From Daphnia carinata (taxonomy: Eukaryota > Arthropoda > Branchiopoda > Diplostraca > Daphniidae): a stretch of DNA of 64,000 nt. The notes under the pieces are model-generated. The model was not told where the DNA came from. It did no database searches and saw nothing but the letters and a program-made list of their open reading frames with translations. Of the stretch, positions 22,853-61,220 are shown piece after piece. The first letter of the stretch is position 1, and each line of letters opens with the position of its first letter. The DNA lies in NCBI RefSeq assembly GCF_022539665.2, contig NC_081332.1, forward strand, positions 1,633,773-1,697,772. The letters are read 5' to 3'. A program made the translations under genes and the position numbers.

Positions 22853-22925
22853 GCCTCTATGGCCTAATGGATAAGGCACCGGCTTCCTAAGCCGGGGATT
22901 GCGGGTTCGAGTCACGCTGGAGGTA
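22853..22925 (+). tRNA. tRNA-Arg (anticodon CCU)
   Basis: 73 nt cloverleaf; anticodon stem CCGGC/GCCGG with loop TTCCTAA, giving anticodon CCT (reads AGG). D-arm GGCC...GGC and a T-loop TTCGAGT are present. One mismatch in the T stem (CACGC) and a U at position 32 set it apart from the consensus copy. Confidence 0.85.
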
Positions 22926-23107
22926 CAGATGAAACTTTAATTGCCCGTGAATTCACGATGAACTTGTACACAGTTAGTGCAATTTGTGTGAGGTCCCACA
23001 TCAGTTGTTGAATGCGAGCGATGAATCACTTTGTCAATAGTCTCTTTGATTTGTTTATGTTCTTTATAAGGAATGATGGTTTGTATATGCAAGACAAATG
23101 TTTTGTG

Positions 23108-23227
23108 TCTCCAGTGGCGCAGTTGGTTAGCGCAAGGTACTTATAAGACAGTAATGAATTGTGCTAATAGATTCTGCAATGTACGGAAGTAATGCCGAGG
23201 TCGCGAGTTCGAGCCTCGCCTGGAGAA
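23108..23227 (+). tRNA. tRNA-Ile (anticodon UAU) with intron
   Basis: Acceptor TCTCCAG/CTGGAGA, D-arm GCGC...GCGC, loop CTTATAA giving anticodon TAT (reads AUA), T-arm GCGAG-TTCGAGC-CTCGC. About 46 nt intron interrupts after the base 3' of the anticodon, beginning AGACAGTAA and ending just before ATGCCG. Confidence 0.9.
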
Positions 23228-23415
23228 TTTGTTTTAAATTACTGGATTGAAACTGATGTTCGTGTTTGCAGGTGTTTCTTCGGAAGCAAAACAAGTTATA
23301 ACTTTTTTTTTTTTAGAAATTGTGTTTATTTTTGAAAATTAAGTGAATTGGATACATGAGTTTACAGGAAAGCCAATGTCAAAACAAAAGGTTACACCGT
23401 TTCATTGTAGAGAGT

Positions 23416-23824
23416 TCAGTAACCATATCCGCCGTAGTAACTGGGTCCGTATCCTATGCCGTAATGTTATGTTTTATAGCATTTTAAAATAAGTTAAGTA
23501 GAGATAACGTATTTGTTACCTCCATATCCTCCATATCCATGTCCATATCCATGTCCATATCCTCCATATCCATGTCCATATCCTCCATATCCATGTCCAT
23601 ATCCGCCATATCCATGTCCATATCCGCCATACCCACCATATCCTCCATAACCACCATGGCCATAATATAATTTGACTTTTTTCGCCATTGCCATAGCGAC
23701 GAACATCAAAGTCACGAAAAGCAATGCAACCTGCAACGCCATACAAAAAACCATAAAAATTAAAATCAATTCGAAATCTTGCTTAGTTTAATAATATCGT
23801 ACTCACTTTGAAATTGCCTGCCAT
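23416..23824 (-). CDS. GGY/GHGYGGY-repeat secreted peptide gene C (3 exons)
   Basis: Predicted 88-residue secreted peptide. Exons: 23807-23824 (MAGNFK), 23520-23730 and 23416-23453. Signal VALLFVTLMFVAMAMA, then KVKLYYGH, GGY units and four GHGYGGY-type repeats, and an end GYGPSYYGGYGY. The acceptor of exon 3 is GGCATAG on the minus strand, chosen because it restores frame and the expected G-Y-G. TATAAATG (minus) is at about 23927-23934. Second subfamily of GGY genes, lying between tRNA-Ile and the cuticle gene; copies at 31697 and, decayed, at 41351. Confidence 0.8.
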
Positions 23825-24839
23825 TTTTTCTTTGGAATTAAGACGATGTATGTTGCGCTGGAACGTTCTCTTCTTTATCGAAGCTTTGCGGATGTGTTTG
23901 GGACGAACCTAGGTGGGCTGTTCCATCATTTATACCAATCCCTGGCGGTAGGCGGAGCAAAAAAAAAAAACCTAATTAACTACAACTTCAATGAATGGGT
24001 GTAACGCCTATTTTCTATTGCACAATCCCCTCTCCCGGACCCCTTCATTACTTTCTCTGCGTGTATCGTCTTTACTTTGGCCGGTGCCAGCAGGTCCCTG
24101 GCACGCGTGGTCTTGAAACAGACCGACACGTGCGCTATGAAGGACACGACAGAAAAGAGAGACCTGCACATTGCGAAAGTATACTCAAAATTAATTTGAA
24201 CGAAAAAGCTAAAACTGTAACGACAGAAATCCCACCCCAAAATTCTATTTCATAGTTTAACAGGTGAGCTAGCGAGTCATCGTTTTCTTATTCAGAATTG
24301 CTAATAGCAATGAACGACGTATTTCCCCTTCTTTTTAATGATTCTATACAGGACAAATGAATTCTTAAATTGAATAGATCATGTAAAATGTTATAAGCTT
24401 TCAGGCTGAGCAAAAAGGCCTTTTAGAAGTGAAGTGTTGCTCTGTTTCTTACCCTGCCCACCTGGTTTCGAGAATGTCCTTAGTCGTTTTAGTTTTATCT
24501 GCTTCCAGTAGAATGTGAGAAACAGCTGAACAAGTGATAGCTCTCCCTTCCCACAGTTTCAGCATTTGGTTCCAGTTGTTCAAAACGCCTGAGTCCATCG
24601 CTAGACAGAGACCTAGAAACAACGTGGATGTAGTTGTGCAGCGTAGAGAGAATTGGGCATGTGGCTGAGCCTTTGATCTGTGATTTTGTTTGACACATAT
24701 TCATACAACTATCTAATGAATAGGTACACAGGAACTTTGTTTTCATATATTTTATTATTGATATATTATATTTTTTATTTGATATTTCATTTGACATCTC
24801 TGTGATGTATATAGATATGTATTCCAGAACGTGTGGCGC
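23825..24839. repeat. GGY-C promoter and spacer shared by three units
   Basis: No gene supported. 23880-23940 is the GGY-C promoter. About 24000-24300 matches 32270-32560 (GTAACGCCTATT..., GGCCGGTGCCAG...). About 24390-24640 (TTACCCTGCCCACCTGGTTTCGAG, CTTCCAGTAGAATGTGA) matches 32660-32900 and 41500-41750. In the other two copies a tRNA-Arg lies between this spacer and the next cuticle gene; here it is missing. Confidence 0.55.
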
Positions 24840-26067
24840 TTAGTAGTCGCGAGCAACGTTACCCGAAGTGATGAAGACGGATCCAGTGCCCGGGGCAGTG
24901 CCGGTCTGGGAAACACGGCCAAAAGCGGAGTCATCAGAGGTAAAAACTGGTGCGGAGTAAGTACGAGAAGTTCCAGCAGGACCGCCGACTGAAGACGAGG
25001 TGAATACCGTAGATGAGGACGAAGGAGAAGTGAAGACCGGTGCGGAATACGTGCGGGAGTTGGCACCCGGGGCGGTAACAGATGAAGCGGTTAAAACGCG
25101 AGCAGAACCAGCAGGGCCGGTAACAACTGGTGCGGAGTAAGTACGAGATGATACAGCAGGAGCTGTGATCGGAACGGAAGTGATTACAGGTGCTGTGACT
25201 CCCGAAGACGTGAAAACTTGGCCGGAGTAAATGCGGGAGGCGTCCCCAGAAATGCTGGCACCAGGAGAGGTGAAAACGGGTGCGGAGTAAGTGCGAGAAG
25301 CTGCAACTGGAGCGACGACCGAAGACGAGGTGAATACATCGCCGGAATGGGTACGAGTGGTGGCTCCCGAAGTGCGGCCAGCAGAAGAAACGAAGACCGG
25401 TGCGGAATAAGTGCGTGAGTTAGCACCTGGAGCCGTAACAGATGAAGTGGTTAAAACGCGGGCAGGACCAGCAGGACCGGTAACAACTGGTGCGGAGTAA
25501 GTACGAGATGATACAGCTGGAGCGGTGACAACTTGAGAGGTGAATACAGGTGCGGAGTAAGCCTGGGCTGAGTAGTGGGCTGGAGCGGGGATCTTGGCTT
25601 CACCTTCGTACTTGACATCAGCAACGTATCCGTAGCCATCATCTTTGTACGTTACGGTTTGAACACGGCCATCGGGGAGGAGGACGCGGTAATTGCCGGT
25701 GGTTACTTTGCTGTCGCTGGTCTCATAGTGGCCGTAGTCGTTGCCGTAACCATCGTAGACGGCCCAGTTGAAAGCGTATGGCTGGGCGGGCTATTAAATG
25801 AGCAATTGTTCATATAGAAACTGCTTTGAAACTGATAAAAGAAACGCAAATTGGACTTACGTATTCCTTGACCTCGTACGTCGAAGGTAAATAAGATGGC
25901 CTTTGGTAAGATGGAACTGGATAAGTTGAGTCGGGATAGGCGGAATTGGCTGCGGCTACAGCGATCAAGGCGGTGAGTACGAAGAACTTGAGAATTGAAA
26001 AATGTAACTGATTAGAATTGAACAATAATTTTAAATATTTGGAATGCACAGGTAATTTTACCTGCAT
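24840..26067 (-). CDS. Cuticle protein CPR-A (RR chitin-binding domain plus SAPV repeats)
   Basis: Predicted 360-residue secreted cuticle protein. Exons: 26062-26067 (Met-Gln only), 25861-25986 (signal FFVLTALIAVAAANS and a PVPSYQRPSY linker ending EVKEY), 24840-25790. Exon 3 starts with PYAFNWAVYDGYGNDYGHYE and KVTTGNYRVLLPDGRVQ, then YKDDGYGYVADVKYEGEA: a Rebers-Riddiford chitin-binding domain (chitin_bind_4), closest to the RR-2 form. The remainder is about a dozen repeats of SRTYSAPVFTS/SSVTAPGA, ending GNVARDY. I translated the entire third exon and found no stop. Exon 2 is of the PSY type shared with CPR-H and CPR-J. Acts outside the cell, in chitin-protein matrix; the repeat tail is probably flexible or cross-linkable (inference). 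Confidence 0.88.
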
Positions 26068-26505: not shown

Positions 26506-26578
26506 GCCTTTGTGGCCTAAAGGATAAGGCACCGGCCTCCTAAGTCGGGGATTGCGGGTTCAAGTCCCGCAAGAGGTA
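26506..26578 (+). tRNA. tRNA-Arg (anticodon CCU)
   Basis: 73 nt; loop CTCCTAA, anticodon CCT. Acceptor stem has one mismatch (GCCTTTG with AAGAGGT) and the anticodon stem a G-U pair; T-loop TTCAAGT. Probably still a tRNA but the least regular of the good copies. Confidence 0.75.
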
Positions 26579-26741: not shown

Positions 26742-26861
26742 TCTCCAGTGGCGCAGTTGGTTAGCGCATGGTACTTATACGACAGTAACTGAATGTGCTG
26801 ATTAAGGATGATATGATTGCAAGCTATGCCGAGGTCGCGAGTTCGATCCTCGCCTGGAGAA
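26742..26861 (+). tRNA. tRNA-Ile (anticodon UAU) with intron
   Basis: TCTCCAG/CTGGAGA acceptor, T-arm GCGAG-TTCGATC-CTCGC. Loop starts CTTATAC, anticodon TAT, then an intron of about 46 nt whose sequence differs from that of the 23108 copy. Confidence 0.87.
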
Positions 26862-31125: not shown

Positions 31126-31199
31126 GCCTCTGTGGCCTAATGGATAAGGCACCGGCCTCCTCCAGCCGAGTATTGTGGGTTCGATTCCCGCTAGAGGTA
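31126..31199 (+). pseudogene. tRNA-Arg copy with altered anticodon loop
   Basis: Matches tRNA-Arg(CCU) along its length, but the anticodon arm reads CCGGC-CTCCTCCA-GCCGA: an eight-base loop and a broken last pair. The T-arm is also changed (TGTGGG...CCCGC). Probably a pseudogene, or a tRNA with an enlarged loop. Confidence 0.65.
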
Positions 31200-31395: not shown

Positions 31396-31504
31396 TCTCC
31401 AGTGGCGCAGTTGGTTAGCGCAAGGTACTTATAAGACAGTAACTAACTAATTGCCATGGATGGAAGTAATGCCGAGGTCGCGAGTTCGAGCCTCGCCTGG
31501 AGAA
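31396..31504 (+). tRNA. tRNA-Ile (anticodon UAU) with short intron
   Basis: Mature part equals the 23108 copy. The intron is about 35 nt, the shortest in the window, but still begins AGACAGTAA and ends GAAGTA before ATGCCG. Confidence 0.9.
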
Positions 31505-33314: not shown

Positions 33315-33387
33315 GCCTTTGTGGCCACATGGATAAGGCACTGGCCTCCTAAGCCGGGGATTGCGGGTTCGAATCCCGCCAGAGGTA
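33315..33387 (+). tRNA. tRNA-Arg (anticodon CCU)
   Basis: 73 nt; loop CTCCTAA, T-loop TTCGAAT, acceptor GCCTTTG/CAGAGGT with G-U at the first pair. The anticodon stem has one G-U pair (CTGGC/GCCGG). Confidence 0.87.
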
Positions 33388-33597: not shown

Positions 33598-34904
33598 TTA
33601 GTAGTCGCGAGCAACGTTACCGGAAGTCGTGTAGACGGATCCAGTGCCAGGAGCAGTGACGGTCTGGGAAACACGGCCAAAAGCGGAGTCATCAGCTGTA
33701 AAAACTGGTGCAGAGTACGTACGAGAAGCTGCAGCAGGAGCAGTGACCGAAGACGAGGTGAATACATTAGATGAGGACGAAGGAGAAGTGAAGACCGGTG
33801 CGGAATAAGTGCGGGAAGGAGCGCCTGGAGCTGTGACAGACGAAGAGGTGAGAACAGGGCTGGAATAAGTACGAGAGTTGGCTCCCGAAGTGCGGCCAGC
33901 AGAAGAAGTCAAGACCGGGGCGGAATACGTGCGGGAGTTAGCACCTGGAGCTGTGACAGATCCAGAGTTGAGAACAACAGCAGGACCGGTAAAAACTGGC
34001 GCGGTGTAAGTGCGAGATGATGTAGCAGGAGCTGTGATTGGGACGGAAGTGATTACAGGTGCTGTGACACCCAAGGATGTTAAAACTGGGCCGGAATAAC
34101 TGCGGGAGTTGTCACTAGAAACGCTGGCAACAGGAGAGGTGAAAACGGGTGCGGAGTAAGTGCGAGAAGCTACAGCTGGAGCGACGACCGTACGAGAGAT
34201 GGCTTGAGGAGCGGTGAAAGCAGGTGAAGTGAAGACTGGTGCGGAATAAGTGCGCGAGTTAGCACCCGGAGCGGTAACAGATGAAGTGGTTAAAACGCGA
34301 GTAGGAGCAACAGGACCGGTAACAACTGGTGCGGAGTAAGTACGAGATGATACAGCTGGAGCAGTGACAACTTGAGAGGTGAATACAGGTGCGGAGTAAG
34401 CCTGTCCGGAGTAGGCGGATGGAGCGGGGTACTTGGCTTCACCTTCGTACTTGACATCAGCAATATATCCGTAGCCATCATCTCTGTACGTTACGATTTG
34501 AACGCGCCCATCGGGAAGGAGGACACGGTAACTGCCGGTGGTTACTTTGCTGTCACTGCTCTCATAGTGGCCGTAGTCGTTGCCGTAACCATCGTAGACA
34601 GCCCAGTTGAATGAGTAAGGCTGGGCGGGCTATGGAAGAGGCAATTGTTCATTTAGATACTGCTTTGAATTCATAAAAGAAAAGCCAATAATACTTACGT
34701 ATTCCTTGACCTCGTACGTTGAAGGTGAATAAGAACGGAAATTGGAAGCGGAATTTGAAGAAGTTTGGCCAAGGTATTCGGAATTGGCTGCGGCGACAGC
34801 GATCAAGGCGGCGAGTACGACGAACTTGACATTGGGAGAAGTATTTTATTAGAATTAAATAATAATTTTAAACCGTTTGAATGCACTTATCGTTTTACCT
34901 GCAT
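33598..34904 (-). CDS. Cuticle protein CPR-B (RR domain plus SAPV repeats)
   Basis: Predicted 387-residue secreted cuticle protein. Exons: 34899-34904 (MQ), 34699-34824 (signal FVVLAALIAVAAANS, then SEYLGQTSSNSASNFRSY and a YEVKEY end), 33598-34629. The RR domain reads KVTTGSYRVLLPDGRVQIVT and YRDDGYGYIADVKYEGEA. The tail has about 13 SRTYSAPV-type repeats, one of them altered (a PAFTAPQAISRTVVAPAV stretch), and ends GNVARDY. I read the RR part and the first half of the tail directly without stops. It occupies the same place in the 8.28 kb unit as CPR-A, but its exon 2 is of the SEYLGQ type, not the PSY type of CPR-A. Confidence 0.88.
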
Positions 34905-35428: not shown

Positions 35429-35547
35429 TCTCTAGTGGCGCAGTTGGTTAGCGCATGGTACTTATAAGACAGTAACTGAATGTGTTGATTAAAATCTATT
35501 AATTGCAAGTAATGCCGAGGTCGCGAGCTCGACCCCCGCCTGGAGAA
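35429..35547 (+). pseudogene. tRNA-Ile (UAU) copy with damaged T-loop
   Basis: Carries the TAT anticodon and an about 45 nt intron, but the T-loop reads CTCGACC instead of TTCGANC and the stem CCCGC no longer matches GCGAG well; the acceptor starts TCTCTAG. The B-box is likely weakened. It could still be a low-activity gene. Confidence 0.6.
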
Positions 35548-36013: not shown

Positions 36014-36086
36014 GCCTTTGTGGCCTAATGGATAAGGCACCGGCCTCCTAAGCCGGGGATTGCGGGTTCGAGTCCCGCCATAGGTA
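36014..36086 (+). tRNA. tRNA-Arg (anticodon CCU)
   Basis: 73 nt; consensus body and loop CTCCTAA; one acceptor mismatch (GCCTTTG with CATAGGT). Confidence 0.85.
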
Positions 36087-36313: not shown

Positions 36314-37625
36314 TTAGTAGTCGCGAGCAACGTTACTGGAAGCCACGCGGACGGATCCGGTTGCCGGAGCAGTGCTGGGCTGGGCAATACGGCGAGAAGC
36401 GGTGACGTCAGATGTAAAAAGTGGTTCAGAGTAAGTGCGAGAAGCTGCAGCAGGACCGCCGACCGAAGACGAGGTGAATACAGTAGATGAGGACGCAGGA
36501 GAAGTGAAGACCGGTGCGGAATAAGTGCGGGAGGAAGCGCCAGGAGCCGTGACTGATGAAGAAGTGAGAACAGGGCCAGAATAAGTACGAGAGTTGGCTT
36601 CGGAAGTGCGGCCAGAAGAAGAAGTCAAGACCGGGGCGGAATAAGTGCGCGAGTTAGCACCTGGAGCCGTGACAGATGTAGGGTTGAGAACAACAACAGC
36701 AGGAGCGGTAATAACTGGTGCGGAATAAGTACGAGAGGAAACGGCAGGAGCTGTGCGTGGATCGGAAGTGAATACAGGTGCTGCGACACCCGAAGACGTG
36801 AAAATTTGGCCGGAATAAGTGCGGGAGTTGTCACCAGAAACGGGGGCACCAGAAGAGGTGAAAACGGGTGCGGAGTAAGTGCGAGAAGCTGCAACTGGAG
36901 CGGTGACCGTACGAGTGTTGGCTTCCGAAGTGCGGCCAGCAGAAGAAGTCAAGACCGGTGCGGAATAAGTGCGCGAGATAGCACCTGGAGCCGTGACAGA
37001 TGAAGAGGTGAAAACACGAGCTGGAGCAGCGGGAGCAGTAAAAACTGGTGTGGAGTAAGTACGAGATGATAGAGCAGGAGCAGTGACAGCTTGAGAGGTG
37101 AATACAGGTGCGGAGTAAGTCTGGCCGGAGTAGGCGGATGGAGCGGGGTACTTGGCTTCGCCTTCGTACTTGACATCAGCAGTGTATCCGTAACTGTCAG
37201 CTTTGTAGGTGACGATTTGAACGCGACCATCGGGCAAGAGGACGTGGTAAGAGCCGGTGGTTACTTTGCTGTCACTGCTCTCTGTGTGTCCGTAGTCGTT
37301 GCCGTAACCATCGTAGACGGCCCAGTTGAATGAGTAAGGCTGGGCAGGCTATTGTATGGACAATTGTTTATTTAGAAACTGCCTTGAATTCATAAGAGAA
37401 AAGCGAATTGGACTTACGTATTCTTTGACCACGTATGTTGAAGGTGAATAAGAACGAAAATTGGAAGCGGAATCTGAAGAGATTTGGCCAAGGTATTCGG
37501 AATTGGCTGCGGCGACTGCGACCAACGCTGCGAGTACGACGAACTTCAAAATTGGGAAACGCATTTCATTAGAATTAAACAATAATTTTCAACCGTTTGA
37601 ATTGCATAGGTGATTTTACCTGCAT
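36314..37625 (-). CDS. Cuticle protein CPR-C (RR domain plus SAPV repeats)
   Basis: Predicted 388-residue secreted cuticle protein. Exons: 37620-37625 (MQ), 37418-37543 (signal FVVLAALVAVAAANS and SEYLGQISSDSASNFRSY), 36314-37348. RR domain: KVTTGSYHVLLPDGRVQIVT and YKADSYGYTADVKYEGEA. The tail has around 14 SRTYSAPV repeats with variants such as SRTYSGQIFTSSG, ending NVARDY. Longest of the SEYLGQ-type copies apart from CPR-E. TATA at 37694, conserved upstream module beyond it. Confidence 0.88.
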
Positions 37626-38062: not shown

Positions 38063-38135
38063 GTCTTGGTGGCCTAAAGGATAAGGCAACTGCACCCTAT
38101 GTCGGGGATTGCGGGTTCAAGTCCCGCAAGAGGTA
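38063..38135 (+). pseudogene. Decayed tRNA-Arg copy
   Basis: D-arm and T-arm match tRNA-Arg(CCU), but the anticodon arm reads AACTGCACCCTATGTCGG, so the stem cannot form and CCT is displaced. Confidence 0.75.
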
Positions 38136-38437: not shown

Positions 38438-38510
38438 GCTACTGTGGCTTAAAGGATAAGGTACCGGACTCCTAAGCCGGGGATTGCGGGTTCGAGTCCT
38501 GCCAGAAGTA
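38438..38510 (+). pseudogene. tRNA-Arg-like copy, probably inactive
   Basis: Anticodon CCT retained (ACTCCTAA) with a broken top pair of the anticodon stem (CCGGA/GCCGG) and an A-A mismatch in the acceptor stem (GCTACTG/CAGAAGT). T-arm good. Could retain some function. Confidence 0.55.
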
Positions 38511-38681: not shown

Positions 38682-38755
38682 ACCTTCAAATTGCCTCAAG
38701 GATAAGGCACCGATATTCTAAGCTGGGGATTGCTGTTGCTAATATCGCCAGAGAT
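38682..38755 (+). pseudogene. Strongly decayed tRNA-Arg relic
   Basis: Only GGATAAGGCACCG, TTCTAAGC and GGGGATTGC remain recognisable; the T-loop TTCGA is lost. It lies between tRNA-Arg 38438 and CPR-D. Confidence 0.6.
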
Positions 38756-45327: not shown

Positions 45328-46315
45328 TTAGTAGTCGCGAGCAACGTTACCCGGAGTCCTGTAGACGGATCCAGTGCCTGGAGCAGTGACGGTCTGGGAA
45401 ACACGGCCAAAAGCGGAGCCATCAGATGTAAAAACTGGTGCGGAGTAAGTACGAGTAGCTGCAGCAGGACCGCCGACCGAAGACGAGGTGAATACATTAG
45501 ATGAGGACGAAGGCGAAGTGAAGACCGGTGCGGAATAAGTGCGGGAGGAAGCGCCTGGAGCTGTGACAGACGAAGAGGTGAGAACAGGGCCGGAATAAGT
45601 ACGGGAGTTGGCTCCTGAAGTGCGGCCAGCAGAAGAAACGAAGACCGGTGCGGAATAAGTGCGCGAGTTAGCACCTGGAGCGGTAACAGATGAAGTGGTT
45701 AAAACGCGAGCAGGACCAGCGGGACCGGTAACAACTGGTGCGGAGTAAGTACGAGATGATACAGCTGGAGCAGTGACAACTTGAGAGGTGAATACAGGTG
45801 CGGAGTAAGCCTGGCCGGAGTAGGCGGATGGAGCGGGGTACTTGGCTTCGCCTTCGTACTTGACATCAGCAATATATCCGTAGCCATCATCTCTGTACGT
45901 TACGATTTGCACACGGCCATCAGGAAGGAGGACGCGGTAACTGCCGCTGGTTACTTTGCTGTCGCTGCTCTCATAGTGGCCGTAGTCGTTGCCGTAACCA
46001 TCGTAGACGGCCCAGTTGAAAGAATAAGGCTGGGCAGGCTATTAAATAAGCAATTGTTCATTTAGAAACTACTTTGAGTGGATAGACGGATAGCCAATTG
46101 GACTTACGTATTGTTTGACTTCGTACGTCGAAGGTGAATATAAATGAACATTGGAGGCGGAATTTGAAGAAGTTTGGCCAAGGTATTCGGAATTGGCTGC
46201 GGCGACAGCGATCAAGGCGGTGAGTACGAAGAACTTGACAATTGGACAATGTATTTTATTAGAACTAAACAATAATTTTTAACCGTTTGAATTGCAAAGA
46301 TCTTTTTACCTGCAT
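45328..46315 (-). CDS. Cuticle protein CPR-F (RR domain plus SAPV repeats)
   Basis: Predicted 280-residue secreted cuticle protein. Exons: 46310-46315 (MQ), 46108-46233 (signal FFVLTALIAVAAANS, SEYLGQTSSNSASNVHLY, ends YEVKQY), 45328-46038. RR domain with YRDDGYGYIADVKYEGEA, as in CPR-B. Tail of eight SRTYSAPV-type repeats, ending GNVARDY. Confidence 0.88.
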
Positions 46316-46754: not shown

Positions 46755-46828
46755 GCCTTGTAGTGGCCTAATGGATAAAGCAGCGTCATCATAAACCGGT
46801 GATTGCAACTTCGAGTCTCGCCAGAGGG
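46755..46828 (+). pseudogene. Decayed tRNA-Arg copy
   Basis: TGGCCTAATGGATAA and TTCGAGT remain; the anticodon arm (GCGTCATCATAAACCGG) has lost the CCT anticodon and pairing, and the T stem is changed (TGCAACTTCGAG). Confidence 0.75.
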
Positions 46829-47325: not shown

Positions 47326-48569
47326 TTAGTAGTCACGGGCAACGTTAGCGGAAGTCCCGTAGACTTGGCCGGCGTTGGAGGCGGTGCTTGATGTAGCTGG
47401 GCCGGCAGGGGCGGTGATAACTGGAGAAGTAAAAACGGTAGAGGAGGAAGACGGGGCGGAGTAGGTGCGAGAGGTGCCAGTAGGAGCCGTGACATCACCG
47501 GAAATGATTACGGGAGAAGTAAAAACTGGTGCGGAGTAAGTACGAGAAGCTGCAGCAGGTGCAGCGATCGAAGATGAGGTGGATACAGAAGATGAGGACG
47601 TCGGGGATGTTAAAATGGGAGAGGAATAAGTGCGGGAGGAGGCGCCTGGAGCCGTGACAGATGAAGAGGTGAGAACAGGGCCGGAATAAGTACGAGAGTT
47701 GGCTTCCGATGTGCGGCCAGCAGAAGAGGTGATGACTGGTGCGGAGTAAGTGCGAGATGATGCAGCAGGAGCTGTGCGCGGATCGGAAGTGAATACAGGT
47801 GCTGTGACAACCGAAGACTTGAAAACTTGGCCAGAGTAAATGCGTGAGGTGTCACCAGAAACAGTGGCACCAGGAGCGGTAACAGCAGGTGAAGGGAAAA
47901 CTGGTGCGGAATAAGTACGAGAATCGGCTTCCGAAGTGCGGCCAGCAGAAGAAGTCAAGACCGGTGCGGAATAAGTGCGGGAGTTAGCACCTGGAGCGGA
48001 AACAGATCCAGAGTTGAGAACAACAGTAGCAGGAGCGGTAATAACTGGTCTGGAGTAAGCCTGGCCGGGGTAGGCGGATGGAGCGGGGAACTTGGCTTCA
48101 CCTTCGTACTTGACATCAGCAGTGTATCCGTAGCTGTCAGCTTTGTACGTTACGATCTGAACGCGACCATCGGGCAAGAGGACACGGTAGGTGCCGGTGG
48201 TTACCTGGCTATCGCTGCTCTCGTAGTGAGAGTAGTCGTTGCCGTAACCATCGTAGACGGCCCAGTTGAAAGAGTAAGGCTGGGCGGGCTATTGAATGAG
48301 CAATTGTTCATTTAGAAACCGCTTTGAATGGGTAGAAGTATAGCCAATCGGACTTACGTATTCTTTGACCACGTATGTTGAAGGTGAATAAGAACGAACA
48401 TTGGAAGCGGAATTTGAATTTGAAGAAGTTTGGCCAAGGTATTCGGAATTGGCTGCGGCTACAGCGATGAAAGCGGCGAGTACGACGAACTTTAAAATTT
48501 AAAAGTGATTTATTAGAACTAAACCGTAATTTCCATATCCATGAGTTGCACAGGTGATTTTACCTGCAT
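47326..48569 (-). CDS. Cuticle protein CPR-G (RR domain plus SAPV repeats)
   Basis: Predicted 366-residue secreted cuticle protein. Exons: 48564-48569 (MQ), 48358-48489 (signal FVVLAAFIAVAAANS, SEYLGQTSSNSNSASNVRSY, YVVKEY end), 47326-48288. RR domain with YKADSYGYTADVKYEGEAKF. The tail starts with a PVITAPATVVLNSGSVSAPG stretch and ends with a different C-terminus from A-F: VIISGDVTAPTGTSRTYSAP, then SSSTVFTSPVITAPAGP and GQVYGTSANVARDY, shared with CPR-H and CPR-J. Confidence 0.88.
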
Positions 48570-49001: not shown

Positions 49002-49074
49002 GCCTTTGTGGCCTAAAGGATAAGGCACCGGCCTCCTAAGCCGGGGATCGCGGGTTCGAGTCCCGCCAGAGGTA
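49002..49074 (+). tRNA. tRNA-Arg (anticodon CCU)
   Basis: Consensus copy; one change in the variable region (GGATCG instead of GGATTG). Confidence 0.91.
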
Positions 49075-49573: not shown

Positions 49574-50527
49574 TTAGTAGTCGCGGGCAGCGTTAGCGGA
49601 AGTCCCGTAGACTTGGCCGGCTTCGGAGGCGGTGATTGACGTAGCGGGGCCGGCAGGAGCGGTGATAACTGGAGAAGTGAAAACGGTAGAAGAGGAAGAC
49701 GGGGCGGAGTAGGTGCGAGAGGTGCCAGCAGGAGCCGTGACATCGCCGGAAATGATTACGGGAGAAGTAAAAACTGGTGCGGAGTAAGTACGAGAAGCTG
49801 CACCAGGTGCAGTGATTGAAGATGAGGTGGATACAGTAGATGAGGACGTCGGGGATGTGAAGACCGGCGCGGAATAAGTGCGGGAGTTAGAACCTTGAGC
49901 CGTGACAGATGCAGAGTTGAGAACAACAGCAGCAGGAGCGGTAATGACTGGTGCGGAGTAAGTACGAGATGATGCAGCGGGAGCGGTGACAACTTGAGAG
50001 GAGTATACAGGTGCGGAGTAAGCTTGACCGGAGTAGGCGGATGGAGCGGGGTATTTGGCCTCGCCTTCGTATTTCACATCAGCGGTGTATCCGTAGCTGT
50101 CAGCCTTGTAGGTAACGATTTGAACGCGACCATCGGGAAGGAGGACGCGGTAGCTGCCGGTGGTTACTTTGCTGTCGCTGCTCTCGGAATGGGCGTAGTC
50201 ATTGCCGTAACCATCGTAGACGGCCCAGTTGAAAGAGTACGGCTGGGCGGGCTACGGAGGAGGCAGTTGTTCATTTAGAAACTGCTTTCAGTTGATGAAA
50301 GATCAAACATTTGGACTTACGTATTCCTTAACCTCGTACGTTGAAGGTGAATACGATGGCCTATAGTAAGATGGAACTGGATAACTTGAGCCGGGATAGT
50401 CGGAATTGGCTGCGGCGACAGCGATCAAGGCGGCGAGTACGACGAACTTGAAATAGATAAAGGTATTTGATTAGAATTAAACAATAATTTTCAACCGTTT
50501 GAATTGCATAGGTGATTTTACCTGCAT
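49574..50527 (-). CDS. Cuticle protein CPR-H (RR domain, short repeat tail)
   Basis: Predicted 269-residue secreted cuticle protein, shortest of the array. Exons: 50522-50527 (MQ), 50321-50446 (signal FVVLAALIAVAAANS, then SDYPGSSYPVPSYYRPSY), 49574-50251. The RR domain keeps YKADSYGYTADVKYEGEA. Tail with about seven repeats and the GQVYGTSANAARDY end (Ala where the others have Val). Its exon 2, promoter and about 1.5 kb of upstream sequence are nearly identical to those of CPR-J, whereas the repeat tails differ. Confidence 0.88.
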
Positions 50528-51293: not shown

Positions 51294-51366
51294 GCCTTTG
51301 TGGCCTAAAGGATAAGGCACCGGCCTCCTAAGCCGGGGATTGCGGGTTCGAGTCCCGCCAGAGGTA
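51294..51366 (+). tRNA. tRNA-Arg (anticodon CCU)
   Basis: Consensus copy in all arms. Confidence 0.92.
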
Positions 51367-51551: not shown

Positions 51552-51657
51552 TCTCCGGTAGCGCATGGTTTTATAGAACAGTAACTAAACGTGCTAATTA
51601 AAGGTGAAATGTTTGTAAGGCATGCGGAGGTCGCGAGTTCGATCCTCACCTGGAGAA
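51552..51657 (+). pseudogene. tRNA-Ile (UAU) copy with deleted D-arm
   Basis: Acceptor and T-arm remain (TCTCCGG...CTGGAGA, GAGTTCGATCCTC), but about 12 nt of the D-arm and the C of the anticodon loop are missing (GGTAGCGCATGGTTTTATAG). The closely related copy at 55877 is complete. Confidence 0.75.
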
Positions 51658-51776: not shown

Positions 51777-51850
51777 ACATTAAAATGGCCTAAAGGAGAA
51801 GGTATCGAACTCCTAAGGTGGGGGTTGCTAGTTCAAGCACCGCCAGAGAT
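51777..51850 (+). pseudogene. Decayed tRNA-Arg relic
   Basis: TGGCCTAAAGGAGAAGG, ACTCCTAAG and TTCAAGC are recognisable; the acceptor stem is lost (ends CCAGAGAT). Same decay state as the copy at 56116, so it decayed before that block duplicated. Confidence 0.65.
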
Positions 51851-52073: not shown

Positions 52074-53065
52074 TTAGTAGTCGCGAGCAACGTTACCAGA
52101 AGTCACGTAGGCGGATCCAGTGCCCGGAGCAGTGACGGTCTGGGAAATACGGCCAAAAGCGGAATCATCAGATGTAAAAACTGGTGCGGAGTAAGTGCGA
52201 GAAGCTGCAGCAGGTGCGGTGACCGAAGACGAGGTGAATTCAGTAGATGAGGACGAAGGCGAAGTGAAGATCGGTGCGGAATAAGTGCGGGAGGAAGCGC
52301 CTGGAGCCGTGACAGTCGAAGTGGTGAAAACATCGGCAGAATGAGTACGAGTTGCAGCTCCCGAAGTGCGGCCACCAGAAGAAACGAAGACCGGTGCGGA
52401 ATAAGTGCGCGAGTTAATACCCGGAGCGGTAACAGATGAAGTGGTTAAAACGCGAGCAGGAGCAACGGGACCGGTAACAACTGGTGCGGAGTAAGTACGA
52501 GATGATACAGCTGGAGCAGTGACAACTTGAGAGGTGAATACAGGTGCGGAGTAAGCCTGGCCGGAGTAGGCGGATGGAGCGGGGTATTTGGCCTCGCCTT
52601 CGTATTTCACATCAGCGGTGTATCCGTAGCTGTCAGCCTTGTAGGTGACGATTTGAACACGACCATCGGGAAGGAGGACACGGTAACTGCCGGTGGTTAC
52701 TTTGCTGTCGCTGCTCTCGTAGTGAGAGTAGTCGTTGCCGTAACCATCGTAGACGGCCCAGTTGAAAGAGTAAGGCTGAGCGGGCTATTAAATAAGCAAT
52801 TGTTCATTTAGAAACTGATTTGAATGGGTAGAAGAGCAGCCAATCGAACTTACGTATTCCTTGACCACGTATGATGAAGGTGAATAAGACCGAACATTGG
52901 AAGCGGAATTTGAATTTGAAGAAGTTTGGCCAAGGTAGTCGGAGTTGGCTGCAGCGACAGCGATCAAAGCGGCGAGTACGACGAACTTTAAAATTTAAAA
53001 GTGATTTATTAGAACTAAATCGTAATTTCCAAACCACTGAGTTGCACAGGTGATTTTACCTGCAT
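52074..53065 (-). CDS. Cuticle protein CPR-I (RR domain plus SAPV repeats)
   Basis: Predicted 282-residue secreted cuticle protein. Exons: 53060-53065 (MQ), 52854-52985 (signal FVVLAALIAVAAANS, SDYLGQTSSNSNSASNVRSY, YVVKEY end), 52074-52784. RR domain with YKADSYGYTADVKYEGEA. Tail of eight repeats including THSADVFTTSTVTAPGA, ending SGNVARDY. Very close to CPR-K in exon 2 and promoter. Confidence 0.88.
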
Positions 53066-53494: not shown

Positions 53495-53567
53495 GCCTCT
53501 GTGGCCTAATGGATAAGGCACCGGCCTCCTAAGCCGGGGATTGCGGGTTCGAGTCCCGCCAGAGGTA
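53495..53567 (+). tRNA. tRNA-Arg (anticodon CCU)
   Basis: Best-paired copy: acceptor GCCTCTG/CAGAGGT, other arms consensus. Confidence 0.93.
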
Positions 53568-53922: not shown

Positions 53923-54882
53923 TTAGTAATCGCGGGCAACGTTAGCGGAAGTCCCGTAGACTTGGCCGGCTCCGAAGGCGGTGCTTGACGTAGCGGGGCC
54001 GGCAGGAGCCGTGATAACTGGAGAAGTGATAACGGTAGAGGAGGAACCTGCGGCGGAGTAGGTGCGAGAAGTGCCAGCAGGAGCCGTGACATCACCGGAA
54101 ATGATTACGGGAGAAGTAAAAACTGGTGCGGAGTAAGTACGAGAAGCTGCAGCAGGACCGCCGACTGAAGACGAGGTGAATACGGTAGATGAGGACGCAG
54201 GAGAAGTGAAGACCGGTGCGGAATAAGTTCGCGAGTCAGCAACCGGAGCGGTAACAGATGAAGTGGTTAAAACGCGAGCAGGAGCAACAGGACCGGTAAC
54301 AACTGGTGCGGAGTAAGTACGAGATGATGCAGCGGGAGCAGTGACAGCTTGAGAGGTGAATACAGGTGCGGAGTAAGCCTGAGCGGAGTAGGCGGATGGA
54401 GCGGGGTACTTGGCTTCGCCTTCGTACTTGACATCAGCAGTGTATCCGTAGCTGTCCGCTTTGTAGGTGACGATTTGAACACGACCATCGGGGAGGAGGA
54501 CGCGGTAAGAACCGGTCGTCACCTTGCCGTCGCTGCTCTCAGAGTGGGCGTAGTCGTTGCCGTAACCATCGTAGACGGCCCAGTTGAAAGAGTACGGCTG
54601 AGCGGGCTATGGAAGAGGCAATTTTTCATTTAGAAACTGCTCTGAATTGATAAAAGAAAAGCGAATGGGACTTACGTATTCCTTGACCTCGTACGTTGAA
54701 GGTGAATACGATGGCCTATAGTAAGATGGAACTGGATAACTTGAGCCGGGATAGTCGGAATTGGCTGCGGCGACAGCGATCAAGGCGACGAGTACGACGA
54801 ACTTGAAATAGATAAAGGTATTTGATTAGAATCAAACAATAATTTTCAACCGTTTGAATTGCATAGGTGATTTTACCTGCAT
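53923..54882 (-). CDS. Cuticle protein CPR-J (RR domain plus SAPV repeats)
   Basis: Predicted 271-residue secreted cuticle protein. Exons: 54877-54882 (MQ), 54676-54801 (signal FVVLVALIAVAAANS, then SDYPGSSYPVPSYYRPSY), 53923-54606. RR domain KVTTGSYRVLLPDGRVQIVT with YKADSYGYTADVKYEGEA. The tail is a mosaic: its start (PVVTGPVAPARVLTTSSVTA) is like CPR-D and CPR-I, its end (GQVYGTSANVARDY) like CPR-G and CPR-H. Confidence 0.88.
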
Positions 54883-55648: not shown

Positions 55649-55721
55649 GCCTTTGTGGCCTAATGGATAAGGCACCGGCCTCCTAAGCCGGGGATTGCGG
55701 GTTCGAGTCCCGCCAAAGGTA
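55649..55721 (+). tRNA. tRNA-Arg (anticodon CCU)
   Basis: Consensus copy except one base in the 3' acceptor strand (CAAAGGT), which pairs better with GCCTTTG than the usual CAGAGGT. Confidence 0.92.
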
Positions 55722-55876: not shown

Positions 55877-55996
55877 TCTCCAGTAGCGCAGTTGGTTACC
55901 GCATGGTACTTATAGAACAGTAACTTATCGTGCTAATTAAAGGTGAAATGATTGTAAGTCATGCCGAGGTCGCGAGTTCGATCCTCGCCTGGAGAA
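55877..55996 (+). tRNA. tRNA-Ile (anticodon UAU) with intron
   Basis: Anticodon TAT with about 46 nt intron. The D stem has one mismatch (GCGC with CCGC) and the loop reads CTTATAG. Probably functional. Confidence 0.78.
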
Positions 55997-56115
55997 CATA
56001 TTGGAGCTGTTGCTCAGCTTCTTTTTCAAAACAGATTGATTGACTTCTGGATTTGTTGGACCAAGTATATAAGACATTGGCCTTTTAACCCAAATATCGC
56101 CAGTTGAAGTATTGA

Positions 56116-56189
56116 ACATTAAAATGGCCTAAAGGAGAAGGTATCGAACTCCTAAGCTGGGGGTTGCTAGTTCAAGCACCAGTAGAGAT
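56116..56189 (+). pseudogene. Decayed tRNA-Arg relic
   Basis: Near-identical to the relic at 51777 (AAAATGGCCTAAAGGAGAAG), with the acceptor 3' strand further changed (AGTAGAGAT). Confidence 0.65.
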
Positions 56190-56412: not shown

Positions 56413-57404
56413 TTAGTAATCGCGAGCAACGTTACCGGAAGTCACGTAGACGGATCCAGTGCCCGGAGCAGTGACGGTCTGGGAAACACGGCCAAAAGCG
56501 GAATCGTCAGATGTAAAAACTGGTGCGGAGTAAGTGCGGGAAACTGCGGCAGGACCACCGACCGAAGACGTGGTGAATACAGTAGATGAGGACGCAGGAG
56601 AAGTGAAGACCGGTGAGGAATAAGTGCGGGAGGAAGCGACTGGAGCCGTGACTGATGAAGAGGTGAGAACAGGGCCGGAATAAGTACGAGAGTTGGCTCC
56701 CGAAGTGCGGCCAGCAGAAGAAACGAAGACCGGTGCGGAATACGTGCGTGAGTTAATTCCCGGAGCGGTAACAGATGAAGTGGTTAAAACGCGAGCAGGA
56801 GCAACAGGACCGGTAACAACTGGTGCGGAGTAAGTACGAGATGATAAAGCTGGGGCAGTGACAACTTGAGAGGTGAATACAGGTGCGGAGTAAGCCTGTG
56901 CGGTGTAGGGGGCTGGAGCGGGGTACTTGGCTTCGCCTTCGTACTTGACATCAGCATTGTATCCGTAGTCATCAGCTTTGTAGGTTACAATTTGAACACG
57001 GCCATCGGGAAGGAGGACGCGGTAGGTGCCGGTGGTTACTTTGCTGTCGCTGCTCTCGTAGTGAGAGTAGTCGTTGCCGTAACCATCGTAGACGGCCCAG
57101 TTGAAGGAGTAAGGCTGAGCGGGCTATTAAATAAGCAATTGTTCATTTAGAAACTGATTTGAATGGGTAGAAGAGCAGCCAATCGAACTTACGTATTCTT
57201 TGACCACGTATGTTGAAGGTGAATAAGACCGAACATTGGAAGCGGAATTTGAATTTGAAGAAGTTTGGCCAAGGTAGTCGGAGTTGGCTGCAGCGACAGC
57301 GATCAAAGCGGCGAGTACGACGAACTTTAAAATTTAAAAGTGATTTATTAGAACTAAATCGTAATTTCCAAACCGATTAGTTGCACAGGTGATTTTACCT
57401 GCAT
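56413..57404 (-). CDS. Cuticle protein CPR-K (RR domain plus SAPV repeats)
   Basis: Predicted 282-residue secreted cuticle protein, the last of the array. Exons: 57399-57404 (MQ), 57193-57324 (signal FVVLAALIAVAAANS, SDYLGQTSSNSNSASNVRSY), 56413-57123. RR domain with YKADDYGYNADVKYEGEA (Asn where CPR-I has Thr). The repeat tail, about eight units, runs in frame to GNVARDY. Confidence 0.86.
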
Positions 57405-57843: not shown

Positions 57844-57916
57844 GCCTTTCTGGCCCAAAGGATAAGGCATCGGCCTCCTAAGCCGGGGATTGCGGGTTCG
57901 AGTCCCGCCAGAGGTA
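57844..57916 (+). tRNA. tRNA-Arg (anticodon CCU)
   Basis: 73 nt, anticodon loop CTCCTAA; small changes in acceptor (GCCTTTC, last pair broken) and D-arm (GGCCCAAAGG), one mismatch in the anticodon stem (TCGGC/GCCGG is G-U). Confidence 0.82.
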
Positions 57917-58076
57917 TTCACGAAGTTGTTTATACTGTTGGTTGATAGATCATCAAAGCTAGTTTATTGGAAGGGAGAAGAGATTCATCTGTTAATCAAT
58001 TTCTCGTAGTTTTATCATTGTGTCTGTTAATTACTTTGTTATCCATTGATCAAATAGGTGCATGTATCTCCAGTGG

Positions 58077-58186
58077 CGCAGTTGGTTAGCGCATGGTACT
58101 TATACGATAGTAACTTATAGTGCTGATTAACATTGTGTTGATTGTAAGCAATGCCGAGGTCGCGAGTTCGAGCCTCGCCTGGAGAA
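58077..58186 (+). tRNA. tRNA-Ile (anticodon UAU) with short intron
   Basis: Consensus mature sequence; loop CTTATAC, intron about 36 nt (CGATAGTAACTTATAG...). Confidence 0.88.
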
Positions 58187-58758: not shown

Positions 58759-58878
58759 TCTCCAGTGGCGCAGTCGGTTAGCGCATGGTACTTATATGAC
58801 AGTGTCTCGTTGTGCTTGTTTGATTGCACGATAATTAAGGCAATGCCGAGGTCGCGAGTTCGACCCTCGCCTGGAGAA
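58759..58878 (+). tRNA. tRNA-Ile (anticodon UAU) with intron
   Basis: Consensus arms (one D-loop change, CAGTCGG), intron about 46 nt of largely unrelated sequence, starting after CTTATA with TGACAGTGTC. Confidence 0.88.
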
Positions 58879-59393
58879 AGCCAGTTTTGTTTCTTACCTG
58901 TCCCACTCATACCTGTTCATGGAGGTTAGAGAAAGATCCTGGAAAGTCTGAGCTATTACGTGGCTGAAGTTGCCCAACAAAGGACGTATTCATTCCCGGT
59001 CGTAGAAAGCCAAAAATTAACATTTAAATTCAGATTTCTTGCTTAGCCATGAGGTATATTTTAATTTGCAATAGGATATCAAAGTTAATTGAATATTGGA
59101 ATCAACAATCTTTCACAACAGCCGACAGATTTACATAATAGTTATTGATAGTTTTTCTTTCAATATCTGGCAAGGTAAGGTGTGCACTATCAACGAGCCC
59201 CACGCCATTGCGTAGACATTGTCCTGTAAAAAAGAAAACAAAACATTAACAGAGATGTTGCATACTACACAGCCTGCATCAATGGCTTTCGTATCTCAGT
59301 TCATTAAGAACAAAGTTGAAGATACAAAGGTGTAGATAAGCATCCTAACTGCCATTCTTTTGCACGCATTTTGCCTTGTGAGTGGAAGAAATC
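58879..59393. other. Spacer upstream of the serine protease homologue
   Basis: No gene or shared repeat seen; presumably the promoter of the next gene. I see no confident TATA box. Confidence 0.35.
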
Positions 59394-60562
59394 ATGAAGT
59401 CCTTTCTCATTCTTTTCGCCGTCATTTGCTCCCGCAGCGCAGGTAAGCCTAAACCAAAGTGAAAAGCACATAATGATGTTGCCAGAAACTCTTTCTGAAA
59501 TGAATTTTTTAAAGCGATTTGGAGCGAAAACGGCCGCATTATTGAAGGTGAACTAGCCACGGCTGGTCAGTTCCCTTACGTAGTTTCCATTACAGAAAAC
59601 GATCGTCACATCTGTGGTGGATTTATCTACAGCAAACAATGGATTGTTACGGCAGCTTCTTGTGTTGAAGGGTAACATCAGTTAAAAATTTAATCAAAGC
59701 AGAAGAGATATTCGATAATTTTCTTTATAGAAAAAAAAGCAAGCAAATTGAAAGTTGTGGCCGGTCAAGTGAGTGCCGTCTCTCCTGATCCTTACGAACA
59801 AATACTGACCGTCTACACCATATTCTCTTATCCGGAATATAACAGCACCACCAGGCTGAACGATGTCGCTCTCCTTAAGGTCCATTCAAATTTCAACTTC
59901 ATTTTTTTATTAAAACGCAATTCGTTCATGTTCTGCAGTTGACGACGGAGATTCAATTTGATTCTACAAACATCGATTTCATTCCGTACGGTGAAGAGCT
60001 AACCAACGATAAGATCGGGGTGTTCATGGGCTGGGGCGCAACGTTCGTACGTATGCTTTCCTAATTTTATCGGATAAACTTTTAAATATATCTTTCTGCA
60101 TAACAAACGGTTCGTAAAACAGGAAGGAGGCTACGAGTCCGTGAATCTTCGATATGGATACTCCGCTATCTTCCCTCCGGCTACTGATGCAACATGCGGA
60201 GATTACTCTGGAGCACAATTTGATTTTAGGGTCCATGTTTTGCAATACCATCACATTAGCTGCACGTAAGATCAAAGCATTTAAATCGTATACTTTTTCT
60301 CCCTATAATGCTATGTATGTACGTTTTATCTATTATTCTCTCCGTATTTCCTGCCGGATCACCTTGTCAGTATGACGAAGGATCGCCTTTCGATCAAAAC
60401 TATGTTGATCCTGCGAACTCATCCGTGGTGATCCCAACTGCCGTAGGCATCTTTTCCAAAGTGCCACGATGCGATCCCACTGCTAAAAGCGTCTATACCA
60501 GACTGTCTGTCTACTATTTTTGGTTCTTAAACACAGCCGGCCAACAGCCAATTCGACAATAG
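59394..60562 (+). CDS. Chymotrypsin-fold serine protease homologue, probably non-catalytic
   Basis: S1-family fold. Exons read: 59394-59442 (signal MKSFLILFAVICSRSA), 59515-59671, 59744-59879, 59939-60046, 60123-60265, then a last coding stretch ending at 60562. Domain landmarks: RIIEGELATAGQFPYVVSI (usual IVGG start), HICGGFIYSKQWIVTAASC, LNDVALLK (catalytic Asp region), GVFMGWGAT and PCQYDEGSP. The TAAHC His is Ser, and the GDSGGP Ser is Glu, so two of three triad residues are absent; only the Asp is kept. Such homologues in arthropods often act as cofactors or in immune and digestive roles, but none can be assigned here. Exon 3's acceptor (AAGCAAG) was chosen because it alone keeps frame. 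The last intron is unresolved: no AG acceptor between 60276 and the Cys-Gln region gives the right phase, so the gene may be damaged or use an unusual acceptor. Confidence 0.72.
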
Positions 60563-60748
60563 AGACAGCTCACCATTACAACTCAAGATGGGCACTGATA
60601 TCAAATATTCAAGATTTGTTGTGTTTATCATTTATATACATACCGGCAAGCGGACATGAAAATGTATCATTGAAATCATTTGTTTGCCCAATAGAATATA
60701 GATTTTAAGCCTGGTGTCTCCTAGCTGTTGCCTGGTGCTCATCGTATG

Positions 60749-60868
60749 TCTCCAGTGGCGCAGTTGGTTAGCGCATGGTACTTATAAGACAGTATTTAAT
60801 AAAGCTAATTGAAATGGCAATGTGTAGAAGTAATGCCGAGGTCGCGAGTTCGACCCTCGCCTGGAGAA
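60749..60868 (+). tRNA. tRNA-Ile (anticodon UAU) with intron
   Basis: Consensus arms, T-loop TTCGACC; about 46 nt intron (AGACAGTATTTAATAAAGC...). Confidence 0.9.
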
Positions 60869-61147
60869 TTTTGAATTACAGAAGTTATTAAATTGCAATG
60901 TTTTACTTTTGTTTGGTGTCAAAGTGGGCGAGTAGTAAAGAAAATGGAACGCACCAAGCTTTTGTCCAATCCTTAACGCACTCAATCAGTTGCAACAGGT
61001 TTTAGAAATTGGGATGCTTCGCCGTGATTGGGTATGCTTAAGAATCTGTGGAAGAACATAACGAAGAATTTCTTGTTTTTCAACGTAACATTCGTAAAAT
61101 TATTTTGCATTCTTTCCATTCGTTTTTATGATATGGATATCTTGTTA
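60869..61147. other. Spacer between tRNA-Ile and tRNA-Arg
   Basis: No gene seen. Beginning resembles 40799-40860 (TTTGAATTAC... GAGTAAAGAAAATGGA), so these two tRNA-Ile copies share a flank. Confidence 0.4.
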
Positions 61148-61220
61148 GCCTTTGTGGCCTAATGGATAAGGCACCGGCCTCCTAAGCCGGGGATTGCGGG
61201 TTCGAGTCCCGCCAGAGGTA
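61148..61220 (+). tRNA. tRNA-Arg (anticodon CCU)
   Basis: Consensus copy in all arms; the last of the series. Confidence 0.92.

Follow-up and report, generated by a model that had tools for sequence, protein, structure and literature searches.

Transfer RNA-Arg(CCU) genes as probable exchange junctions in a tandem cuticle-gene array of Daphnia carinata

The question raised by this locus is why two kinds of transfer RNA (tRNA) genes lie interleaved with cuticle-protein genes. The window, as we call the whole 64,000-nucleotide stretch analysed, corresponds to C2:1633773-1697772 in the 108.1 Mb Daphnia carinata assembly, the single assembly analysed. Between its positions 22853 and 61220, tRNA-Arg(CCU) and tRNA-Ile(UAU) genes share the sequence with CPR genes, which carry the cuticle-protein RR domain (PF00379). 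An earlier note made from the sequence alone had described the tRNA genes as an alternating pair amplified together with a CPR gene, and had suggested that they might act as boundaries between cuticle genes. We favour reading the locus as a birth-and-death CPR array in which tRNA-Arg genes delimit the cassettes and have been the junctions of exchange; to this reading we assign a probability of roughly 0.55.

The tRNA copies were sought with the Rfam tRNA profile (gathering score), intron-aware ARAGORN and nhmmer models built from the window copies. These searches located 21 tRNA-Arg(CCU)-like and 12 tRNA-Ile(UAU)-like copies in 22853-61220, 33/33 on the plus strand, and together with the 11 CPR genes on the minus strand they confirm the counts given before. 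Fifteen of the Arg copies are full and all exceed the Rfam gathering score; six are degenerate (38065, 38693, 40413, 46762, 51786, 56125). The CPR genes were identified by 11 open last-exon frames, 11/11 of which matched an RR-domain profile built in this analysis; the Pfam gathering score (PF00379) was reached in two of the three exons tested, and the exon at 42398 gave no match at 1e-3. The last coding exons of the CPR genes are as follows.

24843..25790, minus, CPR gene 1 (open frame; RR domain)
33601..34629, minus, CPR gene 2 (open frame; PF00379 37.7 bits)
36317..37348, minus, CPR gene 3 (open frame; RR domain)
38985..39692, minus, CPR gene 4 (open frame; RR domain)
42398..43480, minus, CPR gene 5, diverged (open frame; no Pfam match at 1e-3; RR profile 73.8 bits)
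45331..46038, minus, CPR gene 6 (open frame; RR domain)
47329..48288, minus, CPR gene 7 (open frame; RR domain; nearest 3' Arg 499 bp)
49577..50251, minus, CPR gene 8 (open frame; RR domain; Arg 502 bp 3', 1042 bp 5')
52077..52784, minus, CPR gene 9 (open frame; RR domain)
53926..54606, minus, CPR gene 10 (open frame; PF00379 47 bits; Arg 358 bp 3', 1042 bp 5')
56416..57123, minus, CPR gene 11 (open frame; RR domain)

Read along the plus strand, the array repeats a minus-strand CPR gene followed by Arg, Ile and Arg, after which comes the next CPR gene. The 5'-side Arg copy lies 710-720 bp from the CPR last exon in 8/11 genes (two others at 1042 and one at 1384), and the 3'-side copy lies 213-230 bp from the CPR open frame in 7/11 (the others at 358, 499, 502 and 1917). 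This regular spacing, together with the shared flanks described below, bears out the repeated amplification of a block with CPR and tRNA genes. The spacer after CPR42398 is complete (44197, 44438, 45039), and the other spacers have lost or degenerate members; between CPR45331 and CPR47329 the sole tRNA copy is the degenerate 46762, with no intact tRNA, and one or more Arg copies that pass Rfam survive in nine of the ten inter-CPR spacers. With A for Arg, I for Ile and lower case for degenerate copies, the order of the tRNA genes is A I A I A I A I A a A a a I I A A I A a A A i a A A I a A I I I A. Both kinds are thus interleaved with the CPR genes, in an order that is only loose rather than strictly alternating. 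Most of them stand in CPR spacers, as had been proposed, but 22853/23108 and 31126/31396 adjoin small Gly-Tyr-rich peptide frames, and the copies at 58759-61148 adjoin a trypsin-like gene and CLCA-like frames. We favour describing the array as a tandem birth-and-death CPR array with the cassette tRNA-Arg, CPR, tRNA-Arg, joined by unlike linkers, some of which hold a tRNA-Ile.

The Arg copies were grouped by their flanks into class U (CPR 5' side), class D (CPR 3' side), class G (Gly-Tyr-rich neighbour) and class V (another upstream flank). They are listed here with the evidence for each in brackets.

22853..22925, plus, tRNA-Arg(CCU), class G, beside a Gly-Tyr-rich frame (Rfam 60.6 bits; flanks)
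26506..26578, plus, tRNA-Arg(CCU), class U (Rfam 56.1; flanks)
31126..31199, plus, tRNA-Arg with one extra anticodon-loop base, class G (Rfam 49.1; ARAGORN reads cctc)
33315..33387, plus, tRNA-Arg(CCU), class D (Rfam 59.3; flanks)
36014..36086, plus, tRNA-Arg(CCU), class D (Rfam 67.0; flanks)
38065..38135, plus, degenerate tRNA-Arg, class U (nhmmer 62.0 bits)
38438..38510, plus, tRNA-Arg(CCU), upstream flank like 45039, downstream unmatched (Rfam 51.3; flanks)
38693..38753, plus, degenerate tRNA-Arg, class D (nhmmer 37.0)
40413..40482 (alias 40410), plus, degenerate tRNA-Arg, class U upstream, downstream nearest class G (nhmmer 49.0; flanks)
42099..42171, plus, tRNA-Arg(CCU), class D (Rfam 58.7; flanks)
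44197..44269, plus, tRNA-Arg(CCU), class U (Rfam 67.1; flanks)
45039..45111, plus, tRNA-Arg(CCU), class D (Rfam 63.7; flanks)
46762..46827, plus, degenerate tRNA-Arg, class U, sole tRNA copy of its spacer (nhmmer 44.0)
49002..49074, plus, tRNA-Arg(CCU), class U (Rfam 67.1; flanks)
51294..51366, plus, tRNA-Arg(CCU), class V upstream (Rfam 67.1; flanks)
51786..51848, plus, degenerate tRNA-Arg, class D (nhmmer 37.9)
53495..53567, plus, tRNA-Arg(CCU), class U (Rfam 71.2; flanks)
55649..55721, plus, tRNA-Arg(CCU), class V upstream, Ile-leading downstream (Rfam 71.1; flanks)
56125..56183, plus, degenerate tRNA-Arg, class D (nhmmer 34.4)
57844..57916, plus, tRNA-Arg(CCU), class U (Rfam 50.2; flanks)
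61148..61220, plus, tRNA-Arg(CCU), flanks unmatched, T-run immediately 3' (Rfam 68.9; flanks)

When the 21 Arg copies were compared pairwise over 200 bp on each side, homology was seen to step at the tRNA-Arg gene. A flank was shared by 63 Arg-locus pairs, and 52 of these share one flank only (11/20 for Ile loci). The class U flank (8 copies) is common to 28 pairs, 4/28 of which also share the downstream flank, and the class D flank (7 copies) is common to 21 pairs, 5/21 of which also share the upstream flank. Downstream of class U stand Ile-leading flanks, a second kind (46757, 49002) or unmatched sequence, and upstream of class D stand three unlike flanks; the related Ile-leading downstream flanks are themselves preceded by three unlike kinds, U, V and G. 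Copy 40413 joins a class U upstream flank to a downstream flank nearest class G, a combination that is suggestive only, G being weakly distinct. The U flank, taken as the 200 bp that adjoin the 5' Arg copy toward the CPR gene, is 81% identical across 8 units (28 pairs), the same as the introns (81%), and so seems not to be specially constrained; fourfold sites of the RR domain show 74% identity between units. Near-identical repeat units, as in a homogeneous tRNA gene (tDNA) tandem array, were not found, the flanks being about 80% identical and the linkers unlike.

Self-BLAST of 22.5-61.5 kb was performed, and segment ends outside CPR exons were scored within 15 bp of a tRNA and compared with 2000 random placements. 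At tRNA-Arg (7.4% of the sequence) 92/224 segment ends were found vs a random mean of 15.8, with 0/2000 placements as high, while tRNA-Ile received 16/224 vs 13.1 at random (p 0.32). The Arg excess persisted in four further parameter sets, and Ile was not significant in four of the five settings. Nine segment ends fall within 35280-35339, at the place of a missing 5' Arg. The array continues upstream as an inverted wing (C2:1.603-1.627 Mb; CPR plus, Arg minus), in which five Arg copies carry the window's 5'-side flank. When the window was compared with the wing, segment ends fell at Arg copies two to four times as often as expected: 20/130 (9.2 expected, p 0.029) in those of the window and 25/130 (6.4 expected, p 0.012) in those of the wing.

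The coincidence of junctions with tRNA-Arg copies suggests that exchange took place inside the tRNA genes, possibly by a repair route. A wider Arg/Ile association would have been carried along with the founding CPR gene, and the closely similar, same-direction tRNA-Arg genes at both cassette ends would have served as repeated swap points for cassettes and linkers, the candidate routes being unequal crossing over, gene conversion that stopped within the tRNA, and break repair at genes transcribed by RNA polymerase III (Pol III). Intact tRNA copies may be maintained by selection on structure or by homogenisation while the remaining copies decay. In its most general form, the proposal would make one tRNA family a recurrent exchange site, with CPR cassettes swapped, added and lost via recombination in the 73-bp tRNA-Arg(CCU) gene, which would thereby set the modular boundaries of a fast-evolving animal multigene family; we put this forward tentatively, at somewhat less than even odds.

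Several results weigh against exchange junctions at tRNA-Arg. The Ile-leading and G downstream flanks are weakly related through 22853 (scores 31-40), a kinship that leaves it uncertain how many separate junction events there were. Permissive scoring gives an Ile excess too (42 vs 20.5, p 0.004). Segment ends are not independent; once they are collapsed into 20-bp bins, the excess amounts to 2.3- to 3.1-fold for Arg and 1.2- to 1.6-fold for Ile. Two of the three fullest bins (24660-24719 and 55140-55199, nine ends each) lie at no tRNA copy; the former is slightly closer to CPR24843 than the expected site of the missing 3' Arg copy. The wing compared with itself shows no Arg excess (2/128 ends, 6.0 expected), so the junction property is a feature of the window array and of how it diverged from the wing, and is not shared by all repeats here. 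As the main rival account, fast linker turnover beside selected or converted CPR flanks would yield a similar step, and the junction reading comes from sequence comparison within one assembly, no recombination product having been directly observed. Transposon insertion into tRNA genes (Dada type, as described in the available part of PMC3706591) was also considered as a source of junctions; it was set aside, and inverted repeats 60 bp or longer were not found in 20-64 kb.

To what extent the copies remain tRNA genes was assessed by alignment of 30 Arg genes (15 from the window and 15 from elsewhere, 28 distinct); covariation was analysed for the Arg genes. In the 28 distinct genes, pairing holds in 95.2% of stem cells. 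Both sides have changed at five stem pairs, a number reached by 3/500 shuffles, and the covariation score lies above all 500 shuffles; since related sequences can beat shuffles without structure, this counts as support, short of proof. The tRNA itself is 95% identical among the intact U copies (n=5) vs 80% for their shared flank, and 94% vs 78% among the intact D copies (n=4). The intact copies thus appear to fit cytosolic tRNA genes, the cloverleaf being kept by paired, structure-keeping substitutions, with a disturbed anticodon loop in 31126. Mutation directly beside tRNA genes was considered as well, but a dip next to the tRNA was dropped as confounded by free end gaps in the alignment.

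Eleven of the tRNA-Ile copies are full length and one is degenerate (51558), and 9/12 pass Rfam gathering. Copies 35429 and 55878 were found by intron-aware ARAGORN but are absent from the Rfam gathering list, and 51558 by nhmmer only. The intron placement chosen by ARAGORN reads UAU in 6/11 full copies and another anticodon in 5/11, so that in the latter the Ile(UAU) identity rests on sequence similarity (nhmmer).

23108..23227, plus, tRNA-Ile(UAU) with intron (Rfam 45.7; type by similarity)
26742..26861, plus, tRNA-Ile(UAU) with intron (Rfam 48.9; ARAGORN)
31396..31504, plus, tRNA-Ile(UAU) with intron (Rfam 46.7; type by similarity)
35429..35547, plus, tRNA-Ile(UAU) with intron (ARAGORN; nhmmer 117.3; absent from Rfam gathering list)
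40686..40798, plus, tRNA-Ile(UAU) with intron (Rfam 49.0; ARAGORN)
41036..41155, plus, tRNA-Ile(UAU) with intron (Rfam 36.5; ARAGORN)
44438..44557, plus, tRNA-Ile(UAU) with intron (Rfam 48.9; type by similarity)
51558..51657, plus, degenerate tRNA-Ile (nhmmer 73.5)
55878..55997, plus, tRNA-Ile(UAU) with intron (ARAGORN; nhmmer 119.7; absent from Rfam gathering list)
58067..58186, plus, tRNA-Ile(UAU) with intron (Rfam 48.4; type by similarity)
58759..58878, plus, tRNA-Ile(UAU) with intron (Rfam 47.7; type by similarity)
60749..60868, plus, tRNA-Ile(UAU) with intron (Rfam 47.7; ARAGORN)

A T4 run within 20 nt downstream was present at 24/30 Ile(UAU) genes (about 6.5 in shuffled sequence) and at 3/34 Arg(CCU) genes (about 5 shuffled), the scarcity at Arg genes applying within the array as well as beyond it. 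Of 16 control tRNAs taken elsewhere in the genome (nine Lys, six Arg, one Thr), ten had such a run. The absent Arg terminators prompted the idea of a dicistronic transcript running from Arg to Ile, which was rejected as the main reading because T4 runs occur in the Arg-Ile spacers read and because Arg genes without a flanking Ile match (e.g. L035, L036) also lack a near T4.

The origin of the tRNA pair was addressed with compiled genome positions of at least 42 Arg(CCU) and at least 48 Ile(UAU) genes, which are lower bounds and include a few partial copies. Of the 26 Arg genes listed outside C2:1.6-1.7 Mb, 10 have an Ile gene no more than 2 kb away, and these 10 fall at six loci; the expectation is 0.03 under uniform placement, a weak null because tRNA genes cluster anyway. 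The Arg and Ile positions listed form 35 clusters, eight of them mixed. An RR domain was sought at 23/35 clusters, with a 1.5 kb flank on each side and more in some, and was found at four: the window, the wing, C2:7.539 and C9:8.783 Mb. Leaving window and wing aside, six clusters are mixed; five of them were among those examined, and one (C9:8.783) holds an RR fragment. A cluster of 4 Arg and 5 Ile matches occupies 2.6 kb at C2:1.964-1.966 Mb; 3 of the Arg and 2 of the Ile matches pass Rfam, a single Arg match and two Ile matches are partial, and no CPR gene or RR domain was found in the 5.5 kb examined around them. Three other CPR arrays (L073, L074 and L075, a 10-kb sample each, with 7, 6 and 5 RR matches) contained no tRNA by ARAGORN and no Arg/Ile match by nhmmer; the L073 matches are weak with this profile, and its CPR assignment comes from a separate PF00379 search. 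A pairing specific to cuticle genes, as the earlier note had implied, is contradicted by these data, the C2:1.964-1.966 Mb cluster being the kind of locus, the same tRNA pair away from cuticle genes, that the note itself had named as showing the arrangement to be incidental. We favour the view that the Arg/Ile pair is a wider association in the genome that came along with the CPR gene.

Two further places carry flanks like those of the 3' side: L032 at C2:7.539 Mb, which has a CPR gene, and L076 at C2:7.560-7.570 Mb, which gave no RR match and also holds a class G flank. At C9:8783497-8784904 (L060) the RR fragment lies between Ile and Arg, and the Arg flanks are unlike those of the window. 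An Ile(UAU) gene at C3:4795613 lies about 0.7 kb from a CPR match. Next to the wing, C2:1603-1616 kb (L069, L070) holds a neighbouring CPR repeat with strand-alternating genes and a period of about 3 kb. In this genome PF00379 gave 425 first-look candidates. Regular runs of equal-scoring tRNA matches were seen at C2:247-266 kb, C1:8.86-8.88 Mb and C6:4.93-4.96 Mb, with periods of about 1.13, 1.9 and 1.94 kb; one stretch of each was read, as Lys(UUU), Arg(UCG) and Arg(UCG).

Other genes also adjoin the array. Short Gly-Tyr-rich frames lie at 8367-8675, 23497-23787 and 31758-32039, with a remnant near 41300-41500 (one was tested and gave no Pfam match); the last three places sit just past an Arg/Ile pair. 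A trypsin-like gene at 59400-60560 (PF00089 in one exon) stands between tRNA-Ile copies at the array end. CLCA-like copies or fragments occupy 1-22000, 26900-29100 and 61400-64000, with PF08434 in one frame and the rest assigned by frame appearance.

The steps in homology could also have arisen by pure hitchhiking: ordinary tandem duplication of a founding CPR gene would have carried along an Arg and an Ile gene that chanced to adjoin it, and accidents of the first duplications, together with fast linker turnover, would explain why they now mark the ends of the units. The lack of a junction excess within the wing, the decaying tRNA copies, the occurrence of the pair elsewhere without CPR genes and the existence in the genome of three or more evenly spaced series of other tRNA genes all agree with such a history. 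It would nevertheless have to account for about five separate flank changes at Arg copies, at both cassette ends, beside a CPR-side flank that diverges at the intron rate, and for the tRNA-Ile genes, which are likewise conserved yet mostly no significant junctions; we consider it rather unlikely. A translational role is a good deal less probable. The cluster would then raise the dose of tRNA-Arg(CCU) and tRNA-Ile(UAU) with the CPR genes as passengers, and both the conserved tRNA structure and the share of the positions listed genome-wide that fall in the window (15/42 Arg(CCU), 12/48 Ile(UAU)) could be read in this way. The CPR exons use AGG twice and AUA never in 3080 codons, so the array does not serve local codon demand, as had been noted earlier; the neighbouring CLCA-like frames, only partly verified as coding, use AGG 19 and AUA 16 times in 2269 codons (each below 9 per thousand). 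Most Arg copies also have no T4 terminator, and thousands of tRNA genes in Daphnia relatives (5374 in D. arabica and 2614 in D. magna, in the available parts of PMC9820869 and PMC10570034) make abundant tRNA genes ordinary for the genus.

A boundary or road-block function, which the earlier note had raised, found no positive evidence and is improbable. Pol III complexes would in that case separate neighbouring CPR genes, or stop read-through by RNA polymerase II 213-230 bp past the CPR 3' end, for which the near-constant tRNA position on both sides of most CPR genes, the placement of every tRNA copy on the opposite strand and the intact Arg copy kept in nearly all spacers would be suitable. 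The position is inherited with the unit, however, 6/21 Arg copies have decayed, one spacer has no intact tRNA, and the three other CPR arrays sampled do without tRNA genes. The B box is the main TFIIIC site, and its retention, predicted for a boundary function, was not found in five degenerate Arg copies (38065, 38693, 40413, 46762 and 51786, one near-duplicate being left out): it was changed at 16/55 positions vs 65/250 for the rest, and so was not preferentially kept. The A box was better kept in the same five copies (5/60 vs 65/250, p 0.003), perhaps by chance given the few copies. That tRNA genes can act as barriers in yeast and in mammals, as reported in the available part of PMC4041453, is in line with such a function in general.

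Exchange junctions at tRNA-Arg, the reading we prefer, have partial likenesses in known systems. In Saccharomyces cerevisiae, the accessible portion of PMC2675101 places evolutionary breakpoints and gene-gain sites at tRNA genes, with breakpoints at about three times expectation, and proposes recombination between near-identical tRNA genes and fork stalling as causes; in Daphnia, by contrast, one isoacceptor family bounds a protein-gene repeat unit, and the junctions lie within one array, not between chromosomes. The human 1q23.3 repeat (PMC4041453, same portion) likewise consists of tandem units, each with tRNA genes, that change in copy number, but its 7.3 kb units are described there as a tRNA gene repeat, whereas the Daphnia units are diverged, contain a protein gene and are joined to unlike linkers. 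Two isoacceptors repeatedly side by side recall the heterogeneous tDNA clusters surveyed in PMC2888827, where, in the text available, parallel orientation is commonest and local duplication the suspected cause; Daphnia is absent from the main text of that survey, and the part available mentions neither the Arg(CCU)/Ile(UAU) pair nor protein-gene cassettes. Arthropod CPR arrays share the tandem genes with a cuticle-protein domain, and the three sampled in the same genome differ by the absence of tRNA genes. The literature searched, with subscription papers and preprints mostly outside it, yielded no description of tRNA genes framing CPR genes, nor of an Arg(CCU)/Ile(UAU) pairing in Daphnia.

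The interleaved tRNA pattern, then, need not imply chromatin boundaries. The presence of tRNA genes at rearrangement breakpoints is already known in yeast. If the proposed exchange at tRNA-Arg is true, this array would be an animal case in which they frame the repeat unit of a gene family, and would connect Pol III genes with the way tandem arrays expand, as in the large cuticle family of this genome.

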